From: Candidatus Zixiibacteriota bacterium
GTDB lineage: Bacteria > Zixibacteria > MSB-5A5 > GN15 > FEB-12
Assembly (NCBI GenBank): GCA_034439475.1
Contig: JAWXAN010000042.1
Location: 128,765-192,764, forward strand
Direction of reading: 5' to 3'
Length of the DNA stretch: 64,000 nt
How positions within the stretch are numbered: the first letter of the stretch is position 1; the number at the start of each line of letters is the position of its first letter. The notes under the pieces are model-generated. The model was given only the letters and a program-made list of their open reading frames with translations. It ran no database searches and had not been told where the DNA came from. Made by a program: the position numbers and the translations under genes. This document shows, piece by piece, positions 6,568 to 15,209 of this stretch.

Positions 6568-6593
6568 GGAACTACTCAGAGCTTTTCGGGTAC
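6568..6593 (+). promoter_or_regulatory. Possible ECF-type promoter (autoregulation)
   Basis: GGAAC at 6568-6572 resembles the GAAC -35 core of group IV sigma factors, and GGTAC at 6589-6593 follows after 16 bases. It is 36 bases upstream of the sigma factor ATG. The match is short and this is a guess. Confidence 0.25.
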
Positions 6594-6629
6594 GAGATTA
6601 GAATAAGACCTACTACAAGAGGGTTCGAC

Positions 6630-7232
6630 ATGTCAAAAGGAACAGAAAAAGATATTGATTTTGCGCTTATAAGGGCCGTCCAGAACGGGGACATGGTTGC
6701 CTTTAATGGTTTAGTGGATCGGTATAAAGAACGTCTCATGAATGTCATCGGCCGCATGCTCTCCTCCACGGAAGAGGCTGAAGACATTGTCCAGGAAACC
6801 TTCGTTCGGGTTTACCAGCATCGCCAATCATTTAATTTTCAGCATTGTTTTTCCACGTGGATTTACACGATTTGCTTGAATCTTGCGCGAAACGAACTTC
6901 GCAAACGCAAGAAATTCAAATTTTACGATATCAATGAAATGCAAGGGAACGAAGCGGAGTTTGCCGTTGAAGCGAAGCTTCCGAGTCGGCTTCCGCAGGC
7001 CATTGACACCGCGGTAAAGGGTCTTCCCGAGAAATACCGGCTCGCCTTTATTCTCCGCGATGTGCAAGAAATGCCGTATGAAGAGGTTGCACAGGTTCTT
7101 GGGGTACCGCTGGGAACTGTCAAATCACGTGTCAATCGGGCACGTCTGATTTTGCGTGATAAATTACAGCCGAGAATGGAGGAATATAATGCACTGTCGA
7201 AAAGTACGCTCCTTCCTGTCAGCTTTCTCTAA
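6630..7232 (+). CDS. ECF-type RNA polymerase sigma factor
   Basis: The product (200 residues from ATG 6630) is a group IV sigma-70 factor. Region 2 includes MVAFNGLVDRYKERLMN and EEAEDIVQETFVRVYQH; region 4 includes LPEKYRLAFILRDVQEMPYE and VAQVLGVPLGTVKSRVNRAR, the DNA-binding helix-turn-helix. ATG 6630 has an AGAGGG ribosome site 6 bases upstream. An upstream in-frame extension to 6522 lacks family similarity. The 3' end overlaps the anti-sigma gene by 44 bases, the usual arrangement for a sigma factor with its membrane-bound inhibitor. It heads an envelope gene block running to 15209 and probably controls it. Confidence 0.9.
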   Translation: MSKGTEKDIDFALIRAVQNGDMVAFNGLVDRYKERLMNVIGRMLSSTEEAEDIVQETFVRVYQHRQSFNFQHCFSTWIYTICLNLARNELRKRKKFKFYDINEMQGNEAEFAVEAKLPSRLPQAIDTAVKGLPEKYRLAFILRDVQEMPYEEVAQVLGVPLGTVKSRVNRARLILRDKLQPRMEEYNALSKSTLLPVSFL

Positions 7233-7875
7233 CGAAGAAATGACCGGTCGCGTACAGCTGGCCGTTTGTGAGCATCTCTCGACATGCTCCGCCTGCCGAG
7301 CTGAGGAGGGGAGATATAATTCCTTGAAGCATGCTGTTTCGGAATTGCCTCGAACGAACCTCTCCCGTGACTTCAATACCCAGTTGTTGAACCGCATCGG
7401 ACACGAACAATTTGCTGAGACACGAACAAAGGCTTATATGCCGCGTCTCGCACCGCGTTTTGCCTGGCGGTCGCTTGTACCCGTAACTGTCAGCGCGCTC
7501 GGAGTTGCAGTTGTTTTTGTTGGACTTTTCGGTGGGGAAACCTTCTCAGGTTGGAAATCTTCTACGGAAGGCTTCAAATTAGGCCAGAATGATGCCTATA
7601 TCACCGCCGAACCGACTTTCAACCCGAATATGGCTAAGGATTGGTCTCTGGATAAATCAATGGCCCAGAACGAACGTTTGTCTGCTTTGACGAATGGGCT
7701 GATTTTACAGTCAGGCTTTAGCGGCCAGTCTCTGACATCAGGTTACGGTGGCTACTCGGTATATGATAACTCCAGGGCTCCGTATATAATGAAAACCTAC
7801 CGGCTCCAGCCGGTCTACAGGATATACCACTTCTCAGGGAACTCACATTCTCGGGGGGTTGGCTCGGAATTCTAA
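7189..7875 (+). CDS. Zinc-finger anti-sigma factor, membrane-anchored
   Basis: The 228-residue product begins MHCRKVRSFL and carries the zinc-binding motif CEHLSTCSAC (residues about 26-35), i.e. the HxxxCxxC motif of ZAS-type anti-sigma factors. One membrane helix, about residues 88-108 (VPVTVSALGVAVVFVGLF), places the remaining C-terminal part in the periplasm; that part is rich in Ser, Gly and Tyr. ATG 7189 has GGAGG 4-5 bases upstream inside the sigma gene. A GTG at 7156 is possible but unlikely. It should hold the co-encoded sigma factor inactive at the inner membrane until an envelope signal releases it. Confidence 0.8.
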   Translation: MHCRKVRSFLSAFSNEEMTGRVQLAVCEHLSTCSACRAEEGRYNSLKHAVSELPRTNLSRDFNTQLLNRIGHEQFAETRTKAYMPRLAPRFAWRSLVPVTVSALGVAVVFVGLFGGETFSGWKSSTEGFKLGQNDAYITAEPTFNPNMAKDWSLDKSMAQNERLSALTNGLILQSGFSGQSLTSGYGGYSVYDNSRAPYIMKTYRLQPVYRIYHFSGNSHSRGVGSEF

Positions 7876-7876
7876 G

Positions 7877-9046
7877 ATGATAAATTTTAGTCGTTGGACA
7901 GTCCGAAACCTAATGTACGCATTATTTCTGGCGGTCTTTTTTTCATACAGCCCCTCTCAGGCTCAATCACCTCTGAACAACTTGGAATCGGGACTTTCCG
8001 ATCTGGTCGTCCGTTTATCGCAGTCTATCGTTACAGTCGAAGCAGCACAAACATTCGAAGCTGGCAATCTTTCTGCGACAACCTCAAAAGCGTTTCAGCG
8101 TCTTATTGCATCCGGAATTGTGTGTGACACGTCTGGTCATATCATTGTTGCCGCCTCAAGCGTACATGGTTATGATCGATTCACGATTATTTTCGAGAAC
8201 CGCAAAGTCGCCGCCAAGCTGGTTGGGGTCGATTTCTGTAATAGAATCGCTGTACTCAAACCAGAACGGGCAATTGGCCAGCCGGTCAAAATCGCGGAAC
8301 GTCAGCTTTGCGCTGGTTCAATGGTAATCGCGCTTGGAAATGCCTATGGTCTTCGGGCCTCACCCACACTTGGATTTTGCGCTGGGACTCGTCAGGATGG
8401 CAGTCTTCAATTTTCGCTTCCAGTAACCTCAGGAAGTGCTGGCGGCGGGGTTTTTGATCTTTCGGGCAGGTTGCTTGGTGTTATAACCGGGGGAGTGGAT
8501 CAGGATGACCGTCTCGCCGTAGCTATCCCGTCGATTCAAATCCCAAAAATTGTAAGTTTTCTGATAGAGCACGGAGACCGGCAGGCTGGCCACATTGGTC
8601 TGTCATCAGCCGATGTTGAGATATCTCCGGCCTTTGATATTAAATCCTCCTTGGTGATGGCCAAATCAGGAGGTCAGCCCTCGATTCGTATTGACCGGGG
8701 AGTGGTTGTGACTGGTGTGGGTAATCAGTCACCGGCTGAGCGGGCTGGACTAAGAAAAGGTGACATCGTTATCGGCGTCAATGGTCGACCGATAACTCTG
8801 GCCGCTGAGTTATATAACATTGTTAGACAAAGCTGTCCGGGGAATTCGCTCGAGATTGATCTTATCAGAAATAGTCATCCTCTCACTATAGCTGTCGTAG
8901 TGGGGAATAAGTCGATAAAACCCCAATCCGCGGCCCAGTCTTTTTCAGCAAACGAATCATTGGCCGCAGATTCACTTCTCAATATCCTCAATTTCCTCAA
9001 GGCTGAAATCACCAGACTTGAAGAGCGATTAAATATCGTCGATTAG
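7877..9046 (+). CDS. HtrA/DegP-like protein lacking the catalytic triad, with PDZ
   Basis: The 389-residue protein has a signal peptide (residues 1 to about 29), a trypsin-like domain (about 40-230), a PDZ domain (about 270-345, GVVVTGVGNQSPAERAGLRK) and a short C-terminal coiled coil. The fold match to HtrA is clear from SGIVCDTSGHIIVAAS, KLVGVDFCNRIAVLK and VIALGNAYGL. By alignment to those motifs the catalytic His is Ser95 (AASSVHG for TNNHVV), the Asp is Arg123 (NRIAVLK for TDLAVLK) and the Ser is Ala188 (GSAGGG for GNSGGP). It is therefore likely a pseudoprotease acting as a periplasmic binding or sensor protein for the adjacent sigma/anti-sigma pair. A TTG at 7859 is an alternative start. 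Confidence 0.8.
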   Translation: MINFSRWTVRNLMYALFLAVFFSYSPSQAQSPLNNLESGLSDLVVRLSQSIVTVEAAQTFEAGNLSATTSKAFQRLIASGIVCDTSGHIIVAASSVHGYDRFTIIFENRKVAAKLVGVDFCNRIAVLKPERAIGQPVKIAERQLCAGSMVIALGNAYGLRASPTLGFCAGTRQDGSLQFSLPVTSGSAGGGVFDLSGRLLGVITGGVDQDDRLAVAIPSIQIPKIVSFLIEHGDRQAGHIGLSSADVEISPAFDIKSSLVMAKSGGQPSIRIDRGVVVTGVGNQSPAERAGLRKGDIVIGVNGRPITLAAELYNIVRQSCPGNSLEIDLIRNSHPLTIAVVVGNKSIKPQSAAQSFSANESLAADSLLNILNFLKAEITRLEERLNIVD

Positions 9047-9088: not shown

Positions 9089-9769
9089 ATGTATAGTCCT
9101 GCAAATAATAACGCCTTCAGGGAGCGTCTGCGCTCAAAACCCGCATCATCAGATCAATCGCATTTTCAACCATTGCAGCTTTGCCTTTATGCTGCGTCGA
9201 TTGCCTTCTCAGACGAAGAATCAATGTCTCTAAGCGTTATGTCGGCGCGTGAACATAAAATAGCACGAACGGCGTTATATGAAGTAATGTTGCAATCCTA
9301 TTTGTTTCTTGGATTTCCTCGAATGCTTACTGCCGCCGAGAGTCTTGCGGAATCATGGCCGGAAGAATCTAACGATTCGACGGTAAACCAATACACAAGC
9401 AAAGAGACGACAAAATGGTTTACCGAAGGGACTGAATTGTACAAACGGGTCTATGCAGGCAATTTCGAGAAACTCCAGCATCGAATTACTGGTTTTGCCC
9501 CTGAGGCTTTTCGGTGGATGATACATGATGGTTATGGAAAGGTACTGAGTCGCCCAGGCCTCAGCATTATCGAGCGCGAACTGGCAATAATGGCCTATCT
9601 CATTGTTGATTTCCGTCCGAGGCAATTGGTCTCACATATCCGCGGAGCACTCAATCTCGGCGCACAGCCAGACCTTGTATTGGATGCTATCACTGTCCTG
9701 GGTACTGAAACGGGCGAGGGCTTTCTTTTTGCTCAGGATACGCTGAAGAATCTTACGGTGTCAGGATGA
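9089..9769 (+). CDS. Carboxymuconolactone decarboxylase-like (CMD) protein
   Basis: The 226-residue helical protein resembles the CMD/AhpD fold, with two halves that look related. The second half contains ERELAIMAYLIVDFRPRQLV and SHIRGALNLGAQPDLVLDAI, the usual helix pattern around the conserved His of the family. The redox CxxC of AhpD peroxidase partners is absent, so peroxidase-reductase activity is unlikely. It overlaps tamB by four bases (ATGA at 9766-9769) and so is translationally coupled to the outer-membrane assembly genes. The role is unknown. Confidence 0.6.
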   Translation: MYSPANNNAFRERLRSKPASSDQSHFQPLQLCLYAASIAFSDEESMSLSVMSAREHKIARTALYEVMLQSYLFLGFPRMLTAAESLAESWPEESNDSTVNQYTSKETTKWFTEGTELYKRVYAGNFEKLQHRITGFAPEAFRWMIHDGYGKVLSRPGLSIIERELAIMAYLIVDFRPRQLVSHIRGALNLGAQPDLVLDAITVLGTETGEGFLFAQDTLKNLTVSG

Positions 9770-12700
9770 AGCTCTTTTTCAAGGTTCTGCTTGTCGGAAT
9801 CTGTATTGTATTTATTGGAATAGCCGCTCTGTCATACTATCTCATAAATGCTGGCGGCATAGAGCGTCTCACCATCTCTCAAATCAACAAACTGCTCGGG
9901 GAGGACTCTCGATTTATCGTATCATTGGGCTCTATCGGAGGAAATTTCTACTCTGGGATATCTGTCGATGATCTTTCCGTCAGATACAGCGATTCAGATA
10001 TTTCCTTTACGCTGCTTCAGGTTCCTCGTGTGACGGCAGATTATTCTATCATGAATTTGATCGATGCCGATTACCGTTTCAATCTCATTTCGCTGGACTC
10101 ACCCATAGTTGAATTACATCGAGACAGCTCAGGGCGTTTTATCGGACTTGCTTCTCTGAACCAAAGGCCGGATTCAGCGCCTAAGGGAACACCGGCGATT
10201 GTCATTAGTGATTTTCGTCTGAAGAATGCATTCGTATCCCTGATCGATCCGGCTGATTCTCTCACAATCTATGATCTTAATCTCAATGCCGAGCTCTTGA
10301 CAGAAGGCGGAACCTATACAGGAAATATCCGTGAGCTCTATTTTAAATCAAATCGCCCAGGACTTGAATTGACCGATGCCGGAGGCAAGCTAACGGTCGC
10401 GGAGAAGAATATTGTATTTAAGGACTTGCGGCTTGTCCAAAATGAGTCGAGAGTTAAGCTTGATGGCGCACTTGCCCTTGGCTCGATGAGCGGGAATGTG
10501 ACGCTCGATGCCAACAATTTGAACTTGGCCGAACTATCTCCCTTGATCCGGGCAAACCTCAAGGGGATAATTGACCTTACTGGAGATATCGAACTCGATT
10601 CTGGATCTATTCGTGGCTCACTGTCTCTCGGCGGAAAATTCCAAAAAGTCGATCTGGAAAACCTCATGATAGATTTTCGGTATGCAAACAAGCATCTCAC
10701 ACTGGATACGGTCTATGGCACAATCCTCGGATCGACAGCCGTCGATGGACGGGGAGAAGTAGACTTCTCGAAGTCTGACAAAGAGTATTCTGTTTCAGCA
10801 TATGTGAGCAACTTCAATTTGCAGTCACTCATCTCGTCCAGCTTTGTATCTGACCTCAACGGCCAGATTGAACTGTCTGGCCGGTCATTCAAGACATCTG
10901 AACTAGAGCTTTCAATAACTGTAGATATTCACGAATCATCGTTTGACAACTATCCGATTCACTATACCAGTGGTGATATGGTGGTTACCGCCGATTCAAT
11001 CTTATTTGTCGAGGGATTTCAGGTTAATTTCTATGAGAATGAATTTGTTGTAGGCGGAAAAGTGGAATATCGGGATGAGATAGATTTGCGTGTCGATGCC
11101 AGGCTGGGAAGTCTCGAGAGGTGGAAGGACAAGTTTTTTCTTAAGGATATTGGCGGCCGTGCTGAGGGGAACGTTTGGTTTACGGGTGAGACAAAAAATC
11201 CAAACATTTCCGGTGTTCTGCGCTCAGACTCAATCAGGGTGTACGGACTATTGACCGATAGTCTCACATCTGAATTCAAAATCTTACGCATGCTTACTGC
11301 GCCTGCTGGCACTGTTCAATTCAACACCGCAAGCGGCAGCTTATGGGCTTTGGCTTTCGACAGCAGTTCGGGCTTGCTCGAGGTTGATTCCGGTTCAGTT
11401 CATTTTGATTCTCTTGATTTATACCTACCGTCGGTTGCATTCTCTGCGGGAGGAAACGTTCAATTTGAAGGACAGCAGAAAAGAATCACGGTTGACAACT
11501 TTCAGACAGTGCTTTTTGATCGCACACTTCACAATCGTTCTCCGCTTGTATTCGAAGCCGACGACAAAGGCTTCGATTTTAGGCGCTTCACTGTAGGTGA
11601 CACGTTATCCGAATTGACTGTAACTGGCAGACTAAACTTTAACGAGTCATTGGATCTTCGTCTATCCATCGCTTATCTCCCTTTAGAGCACTGGCTTTCT
11701 TTGTTGAAGAGAGAGATTCCGCTTTCAGGAAACCTGACAAGCGAAGCATCTGTCAGAGGGAGCTTTAACAATCCAATAATAAGTCTTTATGCCTCGGTTG
11801 ATTCTATGGTTTATAACCAACATTATGTCGGCATGACTACCCTGTCAGCGATTTATGAAAACAATCTCGTGACTCTCGATACCTTCAAAATTGAATCTTC
11901 GCCGGGTGATCTTGTAGCGAACGGAACATTCTCAGCCGATCTCTCGCTACGCAACGGTGTCGAGGAGCGGTTGCTTGACAGGCCGATCGATCTGACGGTG
12001 AGAGCAAGCCAGAACAATTTTGATTTGTTGCTGCTTGCGCTCCCTTCAATCGAAGAAATGGGCGGCGATTTCTCAGCCCAATTCAAGCTCAGCGGAACTC
12101 CAAATGACCCGCACCTTCAGGGAAAGGCGCTGTTGAAAAACGGCTGGCTCAAGTATCTTGATTTGGTCGATACGCTCTACTTTGATTCAAGTTTGATAGA
12201 GATGGTCAATAACCAGGTCGTTCTTGATGATGTGTCATTCTATATTAAAAACCCGCGCCACAAAAATAGAAAGAGTTATGTCGACCTTGACGGCAGTCTC
12301 AATGTACTAACGCTTGACAGTCTCTACCTTGATATCAATGTCAGTCTTCCGCGTGAAGTTCCATTTCGCTATGAACTTGAGGAGATAGACGGTGTCGTCG
12401 AGGGAGACCTCCACATTGAAGGATTTCTCCCGCCTAAAGTTACCGGTGATCTACAGATTCTCTCGGCCATGTATAGAGTGAACTTTGCCGATGCCAACCA
12501 GGGTTCGCCGCTTATGTCGGCGCTTTCATCTGGCGACCGGAGCTGGGACTTTGACCTCAATATTGAGATTATCTCCAATTATTGGATAAAAAACGATGAC
12601 ATCGACGCCGAATTTTCTGGAAATGTCAATATTATCCGCACCAATGGAAGTGACAGACTTCTCGGAGAAATGGAAATTCTGCGAGGAAAGGCTTATCTGT

Positions 12701-13290
12701 TCGACAAGACATTCCAGCTTGAACCGGGTGGGACTGTAGCGTTTACGGGAAGTGAGGCACTCAATCCGAATTTGGATATTGTCGCATGCACTCGCATTCC
12801 GGGGCAGCGTTTAGACAGCGCGGAGTCATCGGAGCAGCTTGAGTTGTGCATCCACGTTACCGGAACCCTCGAAAATCCTGAGATTAATCCAGCCGAAGAT
12901 TCTCCTTTCAATCGGGAAGATATCTTCCCATTGCTGGTTGCAAATTACTATGCGGGCGATTCGACCCGGGCTCAAAATAATATTGAACAAAGAATATCTA
13001 CCATAGTCTCTAATCAGTTTTCGCAGCTTGGAACGAGGCGGTTGGGCCAGTTGGTCGGCGTAGAAACTTTCGAAATAGATCCGACATCGAGCGGCAGTTT
13101 TGATCTAAGAAAAACATCGGTCACGCTGGGCTTTTATACTGCGCCGAACCTCTACGTCTATGGCAGATCTGCAACAACCGGGCAGGAGGTTGGATTCGAG
13201 TATCGCTTCCGAAAGGGATTTACATTTGAGGGCCGACGAGACGATGAAGACCTCTATCACGTGAACCTCAAATTGCATTGGGAGTATTAG
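9766..13290 (+). CDS. tamB: TamB-like translocation and assembly module protein
   Basis: This 1174-residue protein has one N-terminal membrane anchor (about residues 5-28) followed by a very long run of beta-strand repeats, the pattern of TamB and AsmA-like bridge proteins that span the periplasm. The C-terminal DUF490 region includes EMEILRGKAYLFDKTFQLEP and VAFTGSEALNPNLDI (about 965-1005) and ends in strands (YVYGRSATTGQEVGFEYRF) that would engage a barrel partner. The next gene is a POTRA-barrel protein whose start overlaps this stop by one base. That TamB-TamA pairing supports a role in outer-membrane protein insertion or lipid transport between membranes. Length is typical. Confidence 0.88.
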   Translation: MKLFFKVLLVGICIVFIGIAALSYYLINAGGIERLTISQINKLLGEDSRFIVSLGSIGGNFYSGISVDDLSVRYSDSDISFTLLQVPRVTADYSIMNLIDADYRFNLISLDSPIVELHRDSSGRFIGLASLNQRPDSAPKGTPAIVISDFRLKNAFVSLIDPADSLTIYDLNLNAELLTEGGTYTGNIRELYFKSNRPGLELTDAGGKLTVAEKNIVFKDLRLVQNESRVKLDGALALGSMSGNVTLDANNLNLAELSPLIRANLKGIIDLTGDIELDSGSIRGSLSLGGKFQKVDLENLMIDFRYANKHLTLDTVYGTILGSTAVDGRGEVDFSKSDKEYSVSAYVSNFNLQSLISSSFVSDLNGQIELSGRSFKTSELELSITVDIHESSFDNYPIHYTSGDMVVTADSILFVEGFQVNFYENEFVVGGKVEYRDEIDLRVDARLGSLERWKDKFFLKDIGGRAEGNVWFTGETKNPNISGVLRSDSIRVYGLLTDSLTSEFKILRMLTAPAGTVQFNTASGSLWALAFDSSSGLLEVDSGSVHFDSLDLYLPSVAFSAGGNVQFEGQQKRITVDNFQTVLFDRTLHNRSPLVFEADDKGFDFRRFTVGDTLSELTVTGRLNFNESLDLRLSIAYLPLEHWLSLLKREIPLSGNLTSEASVRGSFNNPIISLYASVDSMVYNQHYVGMTTLSAIYENNLVTLDTFKIESSPGDLVANGTFSADLSLRNGVEERLLDRPIDLTVRASQNNFDLLLLALPSIEEMGGDFSAQFKLSGTPNDPHLQGKALLKNGWLKYLDLVDTLYFDSSLIEMVNNQVVLDDVSFYIKNPRHKNRKSYVDLDGSLNVLTLDSLYLDINVSLPREVPFRYELEEIDGVVEGDLHIEGFLPPKVTGDLQILSAMYRVNFADANQGSPLMSALSSGDRSWDFDLNIEIISNYWIKNDDIDAEFSGNVNIIRTNGSDRLLGEMEILRGKAYLFDKTFQLEPGGTVAFTGSEALNPNLDIVACTRIPGQRLDSAESSEQLELCIHVTGTLENPEINPAEDSPFNREDIFPLLVANYYAGDSTRAQNNIEQRISTIVSNQFSQLGTRRLGQLVGVETFEIDPTSSGSFDLRKTSVTLGFYTAPNLYVYGRSATTGQEVGFEYRFRKGFTFEGRRDDEDLYHVNLKLHWEY

Positions 13291-15209
13291 TGCGAAAACT
13301 CCTTCTTCTGCTGCTCATTGCTGGGCATTATCCATCCTTCACCGAGGCTCAAACTGTCAATCGCGCGTTTTTGCGATGGATGAGAAGCGATCCGGTCATC
13401 AGAAAGATAGTAATAGAGGGGAATAATTACTTTGAAGATTCAGAAATCAAAAAGCGACTTTATAGTGTCGAGCGTAACTTTTGGCAGTCTGTTAAGGGGG
13501 ACAGGCGAAGCCGGGTCCAGGCAGAAACGCAGGATCGTGATACTCTTGAGGTAAAATATCTATATCTGACAAGTGGATTTCTCAATGTAGAAGTAAATCA
13601 CGTAATTGAGGTTATTCCCGAAGATTCATCTGCGCGTATCCGGATTCAGGTAAAGGAGGGGGATTTCTTTCGATATGGCAATGTCCGAATCACAGGCAAT
13701 ATGCAGGAGGAGCTCCGCGAAGAAGCCGCTGAGATAGCCGAGCGTCTTGTGCTTGGTCAGCCAATGAATCCGCTTCAGATGAGCCAGGTTTCCACGGATA
13801 TAAAGACAGTATTTGCCAATGCTGGTTATCCCTATGCAGCAATAGATATCCAGCTTGATACCGCATCTTCAATTCCGCGCAGTGATGTCATTCTGGCAAT
13901 CGAGGCTGACTCTCTGGTGCATTTCGGTGAGGTTGAAATCACCGGAATACAAACCTACCCCTCGTATACAGCCGAGCGCGAGTTGGTTGTTCAGGAAGGA
14001 GACATCTATAAACGAGACGCAATTCTCAGATCGCAGAGAAGACTCTACGAGTCAGGTTACTTTACAACCTTGCGGTTGGTACAGGCCGATAGTTCAACAG
14101 ACAGGCTCAATCCGGATTTTGATTTGAGGGTACGCGAGCGCAAACCGCGTTATATAACCATCAAAACCGGTGCGGGACAATCAACAGTTCGTGATTTGGA
14201 ATGGGACTTTTCCGCCGGATTCGGCAAGAGAAATTTCTTTAGCTCACGCCGGTATGATGTTACCGCGCAGTATTCGTTCGGCCTGGGTGAAGACTCGCGC
14301 TTGCTGACACATCGCTATCTCGCGAGATACACTGAGCCATGGCTTCTCAAACTGCGTATCCCCATTACGATTGGTCTGGAATACAGTCCACCCTTGCGCG
14401 ATGAGGTGCGTGATTTCAAAGTTCGGCTTTTCGGAATAACCCTTGAAACCAAACAGCGTTTCGGAGATTATATTCGAACCACCCTTGGCTTTGAATACGC
14501 CTGGGTGAAATTCTCAGACTTTAGCCAATCGATTGATTCTATCAATGTTAGATCATCAGAACCCCAGCGGAGAAAGCTGTACGCTGATCTGATTCGTGAC
14601 TCAAGAGACAATCTCTTTTTGCCCCGAAGCGGCTCGGTGGCATCGCTTTTATCAGAATATTACGGCGGTTTTTTGGGAGGGGATGGTACATTTGTCAAAA
14701 TTCAAACCAGTCTATCGGGTTACAAAGTTGTCTGGCCGGGCTGGATTTCAGCGAGTAGGGCGCGGTTCGGTTTGGCGCGTCAATTCGGCAGTTCCGATTT
14801 TGTATTTAGCGATGAAGCGCAATATATCGGAGGAGCAAATTCTGTGCGCGGTTTCGACGAAAACCAGTTGGGTCCTAAAGACGCGACCGGAACCCCGATA
14901 GGCGCCCGGTATATCATAAATTTGAACCAAGAGTTTCGATGGAAAACTGTACAAGTTGTCCGCAAAGTACCGCTCATCGGCGGCCTCTTCGAGAAGCTCC
15001 CGCTGTGGCAATCTATCTTTTTCGATATCGGAAATGGATTTCTTACCCAATGGGAGATTGCGCTAAAGGATCTCGCGTACACCTATGGAACCGGTTTTCA
15101 GCTTCTCACCCCGGCAGGACCGGTCCGGCTTGACTATGCCAGAATCATTAAAAGCGAAAAATTTGATTTTGCTGATCGCTGGCACTTCACTATATTGTAT
15201 GCGTTCTAA
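13290..15209 (+). CDS. TamA/BamA-type outer-membrane barrel with POTRA domains
   Basis: The 639-residue product has a signal peptide (about residues 1-20), three POTRA-like domains (about 35-290; DPVIRKIVIEGNNYFEDSEI opens the first and FGEVEITG opens the third) and a C-terminal 16-strand-type barrel (about 295-639). The barrel has the SVRGFDENQLGP motif, the VRGF signature of the Omp85 lid loop, and ends in an aromatic residue (FTILYAF), as expected for a barrel C-terminus. GTG 13290 overlaps the tamB TAG and has GGAG 5-8 bases upstream; a TTG at 13278 is less likely. Pairing with tamB favours TamA over the essential BamA, but the window cannot exclude a BamA paralogue. Confidence 0.85.
   Translation: MRKLLLLLLIAGHYPSFTEAQTVNRAFLRWMRSDPVIRKIVIEGNNYFEDSEIKKRLYSVERNFWQSVKGDRRSRVQAETQDRDTLEVKYLYLTSGFLNVEVNHVIEVIPEDSSARIRIQVKEGDFFRYGNVRITGNMQEELREEAAEIAERLVLGQPMNPLQMSQVSTDIKTVFANAGYPYAAIDIQLDTASSIPRSDVILAIEADSLVHFGEVEITGIQTYPSYTAERELVVQEGDIYKRDAILRSQRRLYESGYFTTLRLVQADSSTDRLNPDFDLRVRERKPRYITIKTGAGQSTVRDLEWDFSAGFGKRNFFSSRRYDVTAQYSFGLGEDSRLLTHRYLARYTEPWLLKLRIPITIGLEYSPPLRDEVRDFKVRLFGITLETKQRFGDYIRTTLGFEYAWVKFSDFSQSIDSINVRSSEPQRRKLYADLIRDSRDNLFLPRSGSVASLLSEYYGGFLGGDGTFVKIQTSLSGYKVVWPGWISASRARFGLARQFGSSDFVFSDEAQYIGGANSVRGFDENQLGPKDATGTPIGARYIINLNQEFRWKTVQVVRKVPLIGGLFEKLPLWQSIFFDIGNGFLTQWEIALKDLAYTYGTGFQLLTPAGPVRLDYARIIKSEKFDFADRWHFTILYAF

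Follow-up and report, generated by a model that had tools for sequence, protein, structure and literature searches.

We found a variant form of the envelope stress module that consists of a sigma factor, an anti-sigma factor, and an HtrA in a 64,000-nucleotide stretch of DNA from a Candidatus Zixiibacteriota bacterium (contig JAWXAN010000042.1; we refer to the whole stretch as the window). In this variant, the genes for an ECF sigma factor and a membrane-anchored anti-sigma factor are followed by a gene for an HtrA-like protein without the catalytic triad, which we call pseudo-HtrA. The presence of pseudo-HtrA covaries with an aromatic residue at the end of the adjacent anti-sigma factor. We propose that pseudo-HtrA descends from a DegS- or DegQ-like HtrA, acts in the periplasm as a pseudoprotease, and may bind the tail of the anti-sigma factor. 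We lean modestly towards this explanation as a whole, tail binding included.

The gene order is (DUF401), ECF sigma factor, zf-HC2 membrane anti-sigma factor, pseudo-HtrA, a protein of the carboxymuconolactone-decarboxylase (CMD) family, a TamB-like protein, and an Omp85 protein. The features of the operon are as follows (positions in the window, strand, and description):

6568..6595, +, GGAACT-N15-GGTAnnA, a predicted promoter of the ECF type that precedes the sigma gene
6630..7232, +, ECF sigma factor (Pfam Sigma70_r2 and Sigma70_r4_2)
7189..7875, +, membrane-anchored zf-HC2 anti-sigma factor (Pfam zf-HC2, 25.3 bits)
7870..7872, +, codon for the last residue of the anti-sigma factor, a Phe that is a candidate ligand for the PDZ domain (final F/Y in 87 of 91 loci with HtrA)
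7877..9046, +, pseudo-HtrA, 389 amino acids: signal peptide, trypsin-like domain, one PDZ domain, C-terminal helix
8156..8158, +, Ser94, at the position of the catalytic His (codon TCA)
8243..8245, +, Arg123, at the position of the catalytic Asp (codon AGA)
8438..8440, +, Ala188, at the position of the catalytic Ser (codon GCT)
8579..8602, +, PDZ carboxylate-binding loop R235-QAG-HIGL, of the form R-xxx-[GY]-hydrophobic-G-hydrophobic
9089..9769, +, CMD-family protein (Pfam CMD, 32.3 bits; its place is order-wide)
9766..13290, +, TamB-like protein (NCBIfam TamB, 82 bits, under the equivalog cut-off; also by synteny)
13278..15209, +, Omp85-family outer-membrane protein, BamA/TamA-like (NCBIfam OM_YaeT, 261.6 bits against a cut-off of 297; also by synteny)

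Pseudo-HtrA is an HtrA by its fold, but by a defining feature that we tested it is neither an HtrA protease nor a DegS. A trypsin-like domain is followed by a C-terminal PDZ domain, as in HtrA and DegP. The Trypsin_2 match is degenerate (39.5 bits; the Pfam cut-off is 27.6), and the single PDZ domain scores 44.6 bits, also above its cut-off. Profiles of PDB entries match it with E = 2.7e-53. An AlphaFold2 model (pLDDT of 86) is most similar to DegS among PDB entries (Foldseek E = 1.2e-24), and its best Foldseek matches are DegS, DegP, and Deg1. The NCBIfam models for DegS give 84-88 bits, versus cut-offs of 408-423.

We placed the catalytic columns by aligning pseudo-HtrA with DegP, DegQ, DegS, and intact HtrAs. 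An initial annotation of this DNA, made from the sequence alone, had claimed that all three catalytic residues are replaced, and it had proposed an alignment with DegP, DegS, and HtrA as a check. All three positions are indeed substituted. The replacements of Asp by Arg123 and of Ser by Ala188 are as originally described, but the residue in the His column is Ser94, not Ser95 (an error of one position), because DGYILTNAHVV and SGHIIVAASSV align without gaps. We found no intact triad elsewhere in the domain. So pseudo-HtrA lacks the His-Asp-Ser triad of an active protease, and with it the residues with which DegS cuts an anti-sigma factor. The invariant residues of the fold (G80, G87, D119, G147, G154, G166, G189, G197, and G201) are all present. 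The annotation had also described the signal peptide, the PDZ domain, and the flanking motifs as intact in an open frame; the frame of 389 codons is indeed open and encodes a signal peptide. From its sequence, pseudo-HtrA is almost certainly dead as a protease.

Within the window's family, 52 of 54 genomes carry the gene, with an open frame in almost every case, and nearly all of these relatives are 38-46% identical to pseudo-HtrA from the window. Further families of the same order also carry it. The catalytic His and Ser are both missing from all 60 of the 60 orthologues, which come from the four families of the order, and this puts these losses beyond chance or sequencing error; a check of relatives had been proposed for just this purpose of seeing whether the losses are conserved. 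The Asp is retained in seven of the 60. We rejected the idea that the order shares particular replacement residues, as the His and Ser columns vary freely. Among close pairs, dN/dS of the HtrA gene is 0.06-0.27, so the protein is being maintained. With the order-wide loss of catalytic residues and the retention of the fold, this bears out the earlier suggestion that pseudo-HtrA is under selection as a non-protease. The carboxylate-binding loop of the PDZ domain, which in DegS serves C-terminal ligands, is present and conserved: within the family, R235 is conserved in 96%, G238 in 100%, and G241 in 100%, and G241 is at 100% class-wide as well. (The motif for this loop is described in PMC11642142.) As a separate observation, 49 of 49 family members share C145 (8309-8311) and C168 (8378-8380), two cysteines that are almost absent from other families and from ordinary HtrAs. 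They possibly form a disulfide.

We then looked across the class, by combining a search of the phylum with reading the neighborhoods of the sigma genes. (Families are numbered with an f.) The slot of sigma factor, anti-sigma factor, and HtrA is also found in families f6-f19. In f10, which is represented by three genomes (loci L212, L213, and L214), the HtrA in the slot has the full His-Asp-Ser triad. This is likely to be the ancestral form, competent as a protease. Most slot proteins from f6, f11-f17, and f19 keep the Ser, while the His and usually the Asp are replaced. In f9, the Ser column is Ala in all three sequences. In a phylogenetic tree, all the slot proteins that could be placed, including those from f10, form one clade (99*), apart from ordinary HtrAs. 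Given a single clade that includes the intact f10 proteins, the simplest reading is that an active ancestor was followed by several later losses, although the deep forks of the tree are poorly supported. A scan of named genomes, with a 10-row alignment, gave relatives named Candidatus Zixiibacteriota or candidate division GN15. Matches from outside Zixibacteria were rejected as family members: those that we checked are ordinary HtrAs with intact triads. In f7 (L243 and L244), the slot is occupied by an expanded HtrA: the operon's frame is 684-756 amino acids long, with 8 residues inserted at the His loop.

The initial annotation had also placed the gene next to an ECF sigma/anti-sigma pair. 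More precisely, it directly follows the anti-sigma gene, on the same strand, at all of the loci that we examined in the class and that have both genes. In the window, the start codon of pseudo-HtrA is 1 nt past the stop codon of the anti-sigma factor. Pseudo-HtrA thus shares with DegS its association with an ECF sigma factor and a membrane anti-sigma factor, with a gene order that is conserved class-wide.

The anti-sigma factor has cytoplasmic zinc-finger helices, one transmembrane helix (around 7465-7530), and a periplasmic tail that ends in ...GVGSEF. In its AlphaFold2 model, residues 4-83 and 94-115 are helical, while residues 173-229 of the tail have pLDDT under 50, and the periplasmic tail is predicted to be disordered. 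In an alignment of the anti-sigma factors, the last residue is conserved and the preceding ones are variable. This pattern, a conserved end after variable and disordered residues, is expected of a C-terminal ligand.

The final residue is Phe or Tyr at 87 of the 91 loci with HtrA, which are spread over the families of the class, but at only 5 of the 14 loci without it (p = 3.9e-7, Fisher exact test, which ignores relatedness). The 14 loci without HtrA are from f4 and f5, plus one from f14. Among other zf-HC2 proteins with transmembrane anchors in the same genomes, 3 of 23 end in F or Y. On a tree of the sigma factors, four of the six losses of the aromatic end map to HtrA-less branches, although these branches account for just 3.6% of the at-risk length (p = 2.4e-5; this branch-length test used a quick tree and parsimony). 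In a strict phylogenetic sign test, on average 2.2 of 3 pairs have the expected direction and 0.0 the opposite, but HtrA was lost independently only three times, so significance is unreachable. The exceptions among loci with HtrA are three from f2 and one from f1. In the f2 anti-sigma factors (L107, L109, and L114), an early stop gives an end of ...NYLVIP or NYLISP with HtrA present; we looked for a frameshifted tail in these three and saw none. In the f10 loci with an intact triad, the anti-sigma factor ends in an aromatic residue too.

Because the aromatic end covaries with the HtrA gene, we infer that pseudo-HtrA binds the tail. The PDZ domain would be a receptor for the end of the anti-sigma factor from the same operon, and a DegS-type protease would have become a guard or sensor that resembles RseB. 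We consider this slightly more likely than not. The initial annotation had guessed that a dead HtrA might sense or protect, and the C-terminus of the anti-sigma factor now lends that guess indirect support. It is known that the PDZ domains of DegS and AlgW bind C-termini of the form YxF or WVF, and that MucB and RseB bind MucA and RseA and block their site-1 cleavage (PMC8545111). By analogy, the PDZ domain of pseudo-HtrA would bind the free aromatic C-terminus of the anti-sigma factor, and pseudo-HtrA would act as a non-cutting co-factor that shields the anti-sigma factor from site-1 cleavage, as RseB and MucB do. More speculatively, unfolded outer-membrane proteins (OMPs), which have aromatic C-termini too, might compete for the PDZ groove and free the tail. 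The freed anti-sigma factor might then be degraded by another protease and by a site-2 protease that resembles RseP. The window's genome does encode, elsewhere, two HtrAs with full triads, one of which could be the other protease, and an RseP-like M50 protease. Such an envelope stress switch would be of the sigma-E type but would operate through a swap of PDZ ligands rather than by activating a protease, with a dead DegS-like cap that is released by the C-termini of unfolded OMPs. We offer this fuller scheme tentatively, and it may well be wrong.

Several other explanations need to be weighed. Pseudo-HtrA could be a protease-free chaperone or escort for OMPs that serves the TamB/Omp85 module and has no direct role with the sigma factor. 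The genes for TamB and Omp85 do lie downstream in most families, inactive variants of HtrA retain chaperone-like activity (PMC11642142), and the PDZ domain could bind the C-termini of OMPs. But in f11 and f13-f16, HtrA is kept together with the sigma and anti-sigma factors while TamAB is not nearby (within the 2.4-7.5 kb that we read downstream, at most loci), and in f4 and f5, HtrA is gone and TamAB is retained. This argues that the main tie of pseudo-HtrA is to regulation rather than to OMP assembly. A chaperone also does not account for the changes in the anti-sigma tail when HtrA is lost, and we think this explanation is unlikely. As HtrAs form oligomers, and as MamO offers a precedent in promoting MamE-dependent proteolysis (PMC4794232), another idea is that pseudo-HtrA is a regulatory subunit or activator of an intact HtrA in the same cell, of which the genome has two with full triads. 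We see no specific link to those two proteins: the link is always to the sigma and anti-sigma factors, and the anti-sigma tail would be left unexplained. This seems quite improbable. We give even less weight to the possibility that the aromatic end is a signal for a different PDZ protease, such as RseP or a Prc-type (tail-specific) protease, with pseudo-HtrA having an unrelated role. An RseP-like M50 protein is encoded, and the five HtrA-less loci with an aromatic end fit with this possibility, but the losses of the aromatic end cluster in lineages that have lost the HtrA gene, and RseP and other proteases presumably persist in those genomes.

We consider two further explanations very improbable. 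With three catalytic residues gone and free to vary among relatives, pseudo-HtrA might look like a decaying remnant without a function. The selection data refute this: the gene persists as an open frame in nearly all of the family, its dN/dS is low, and both domains have invariant residues. Conversely, pseudo-HtrA might still cut proteins, with an active site that is rearranged or of another kind, given that many class members outside the order keep the Ser while the His and Asp are replaced. This is scarcely credible for the order, where 0 of 60 sequences have the Ser or the His. No other conserved nucleophile paired with a base is apparent; C145 and C168 are family-specific.

We compared the preferred explanation, a pseudoprotease that binds the anti-sigma tail, to known systems. 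Like DegS and AlgW, pseudo-HtrA is periplasmic, has one trypsin-like domain and one PDZ domain, is linked to an ECF sigma factor and a membrane anti-sigma factor, and has a PDZ groove like those known to bind aromatic C-termini; DegS is also its best structural match. Unlike them, it has no triad, has a signal peptide of the cleavable type, and is encoded within the sigma operon. Also, the aromatic C-terminus is on the anti-sigma factor itself, whereas the ligand for DegS or AlgW comes from OMPs or MucE. As proposed, pseudo-HtrA would be similar to RseB and MucB in being a non-catalytic periplasmic partner, encoded after the anti-sigma factor, that controls its cleavage. However, the contact would be between a PDZ domain and a C-terminus, and RseB has a fold that is unrelated to HtrA, while the model of pseudo-HtrA is HtrA-like.

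In Mycobacterium tuberculosis, an HtrA gene, Rv1223, lies near the SigE/RseA pair, and we know of no loss of its triad. Unlike pseudo-HtrA, Rv1223 has a large cytoplasmic domain, and it is not described as inactive. (It has been described as HtrA-like; PMC3062566.) The closest described HtrA pseudoprotease is MamO, which belongs to a different system. MamO, from magnetotactic bacteria, has non-catalytic roles beside active HtrAs (PMC4794232). It retains the His and the Asp, carries Thr in place of Ser, and is a metal-binding protein with a transporter domain. Unlike pseudo-HtrA, MamO is outside of any sigma operon. We found no pseudoprotease in a sigma/anti-sigma system in the openly accessible literature that we searched.

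In the textbook example, DegS, a protease reads the stress signal. This class keeps a DegS-like protein in the operon of a stress switch with catalysis removed, and intermediate stages are visible in living lineages. If the proposal is correct, then the series from an intact triad to complete loss is a record of a protease becoming a receptor. Binding of the tail would separate sensing by the PDZ domain from proteolysis, a natural experiment on the change from enzyme to receptor. The intact HtrA of f10 provides a natural comparison for the dead proteins in the same slot.

Finally, we examined the promoter and the other genes of the operon. GGAACT is found upstream of the sigma gene at 51 of 57 loci (versus 7% of background 240-nt windows), and in about 98%, GGTA and the following A are at a fixed spacing from it. 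The full pattern has a single match in the window, versus 0.01 expected. This suggests that the operon is autoregulated through the predicted promoter. The position of the element, at 6568-6595, also favors the ATG at 6630 over 6522 as the start of the sigma frame. Genome-wide, the pattern matched three sites, versus two for a reversed control, so we do not claim a regulon beyond the operon; neither of the two sites outside the operon clearly precedes matching genes. Within the order, the sigma factor is 65-86% identical. The CMD-family protein has no known role but is kept between HtrA and TamB across the order; in one genus (L088, L089, and L094), the operon lacks it.
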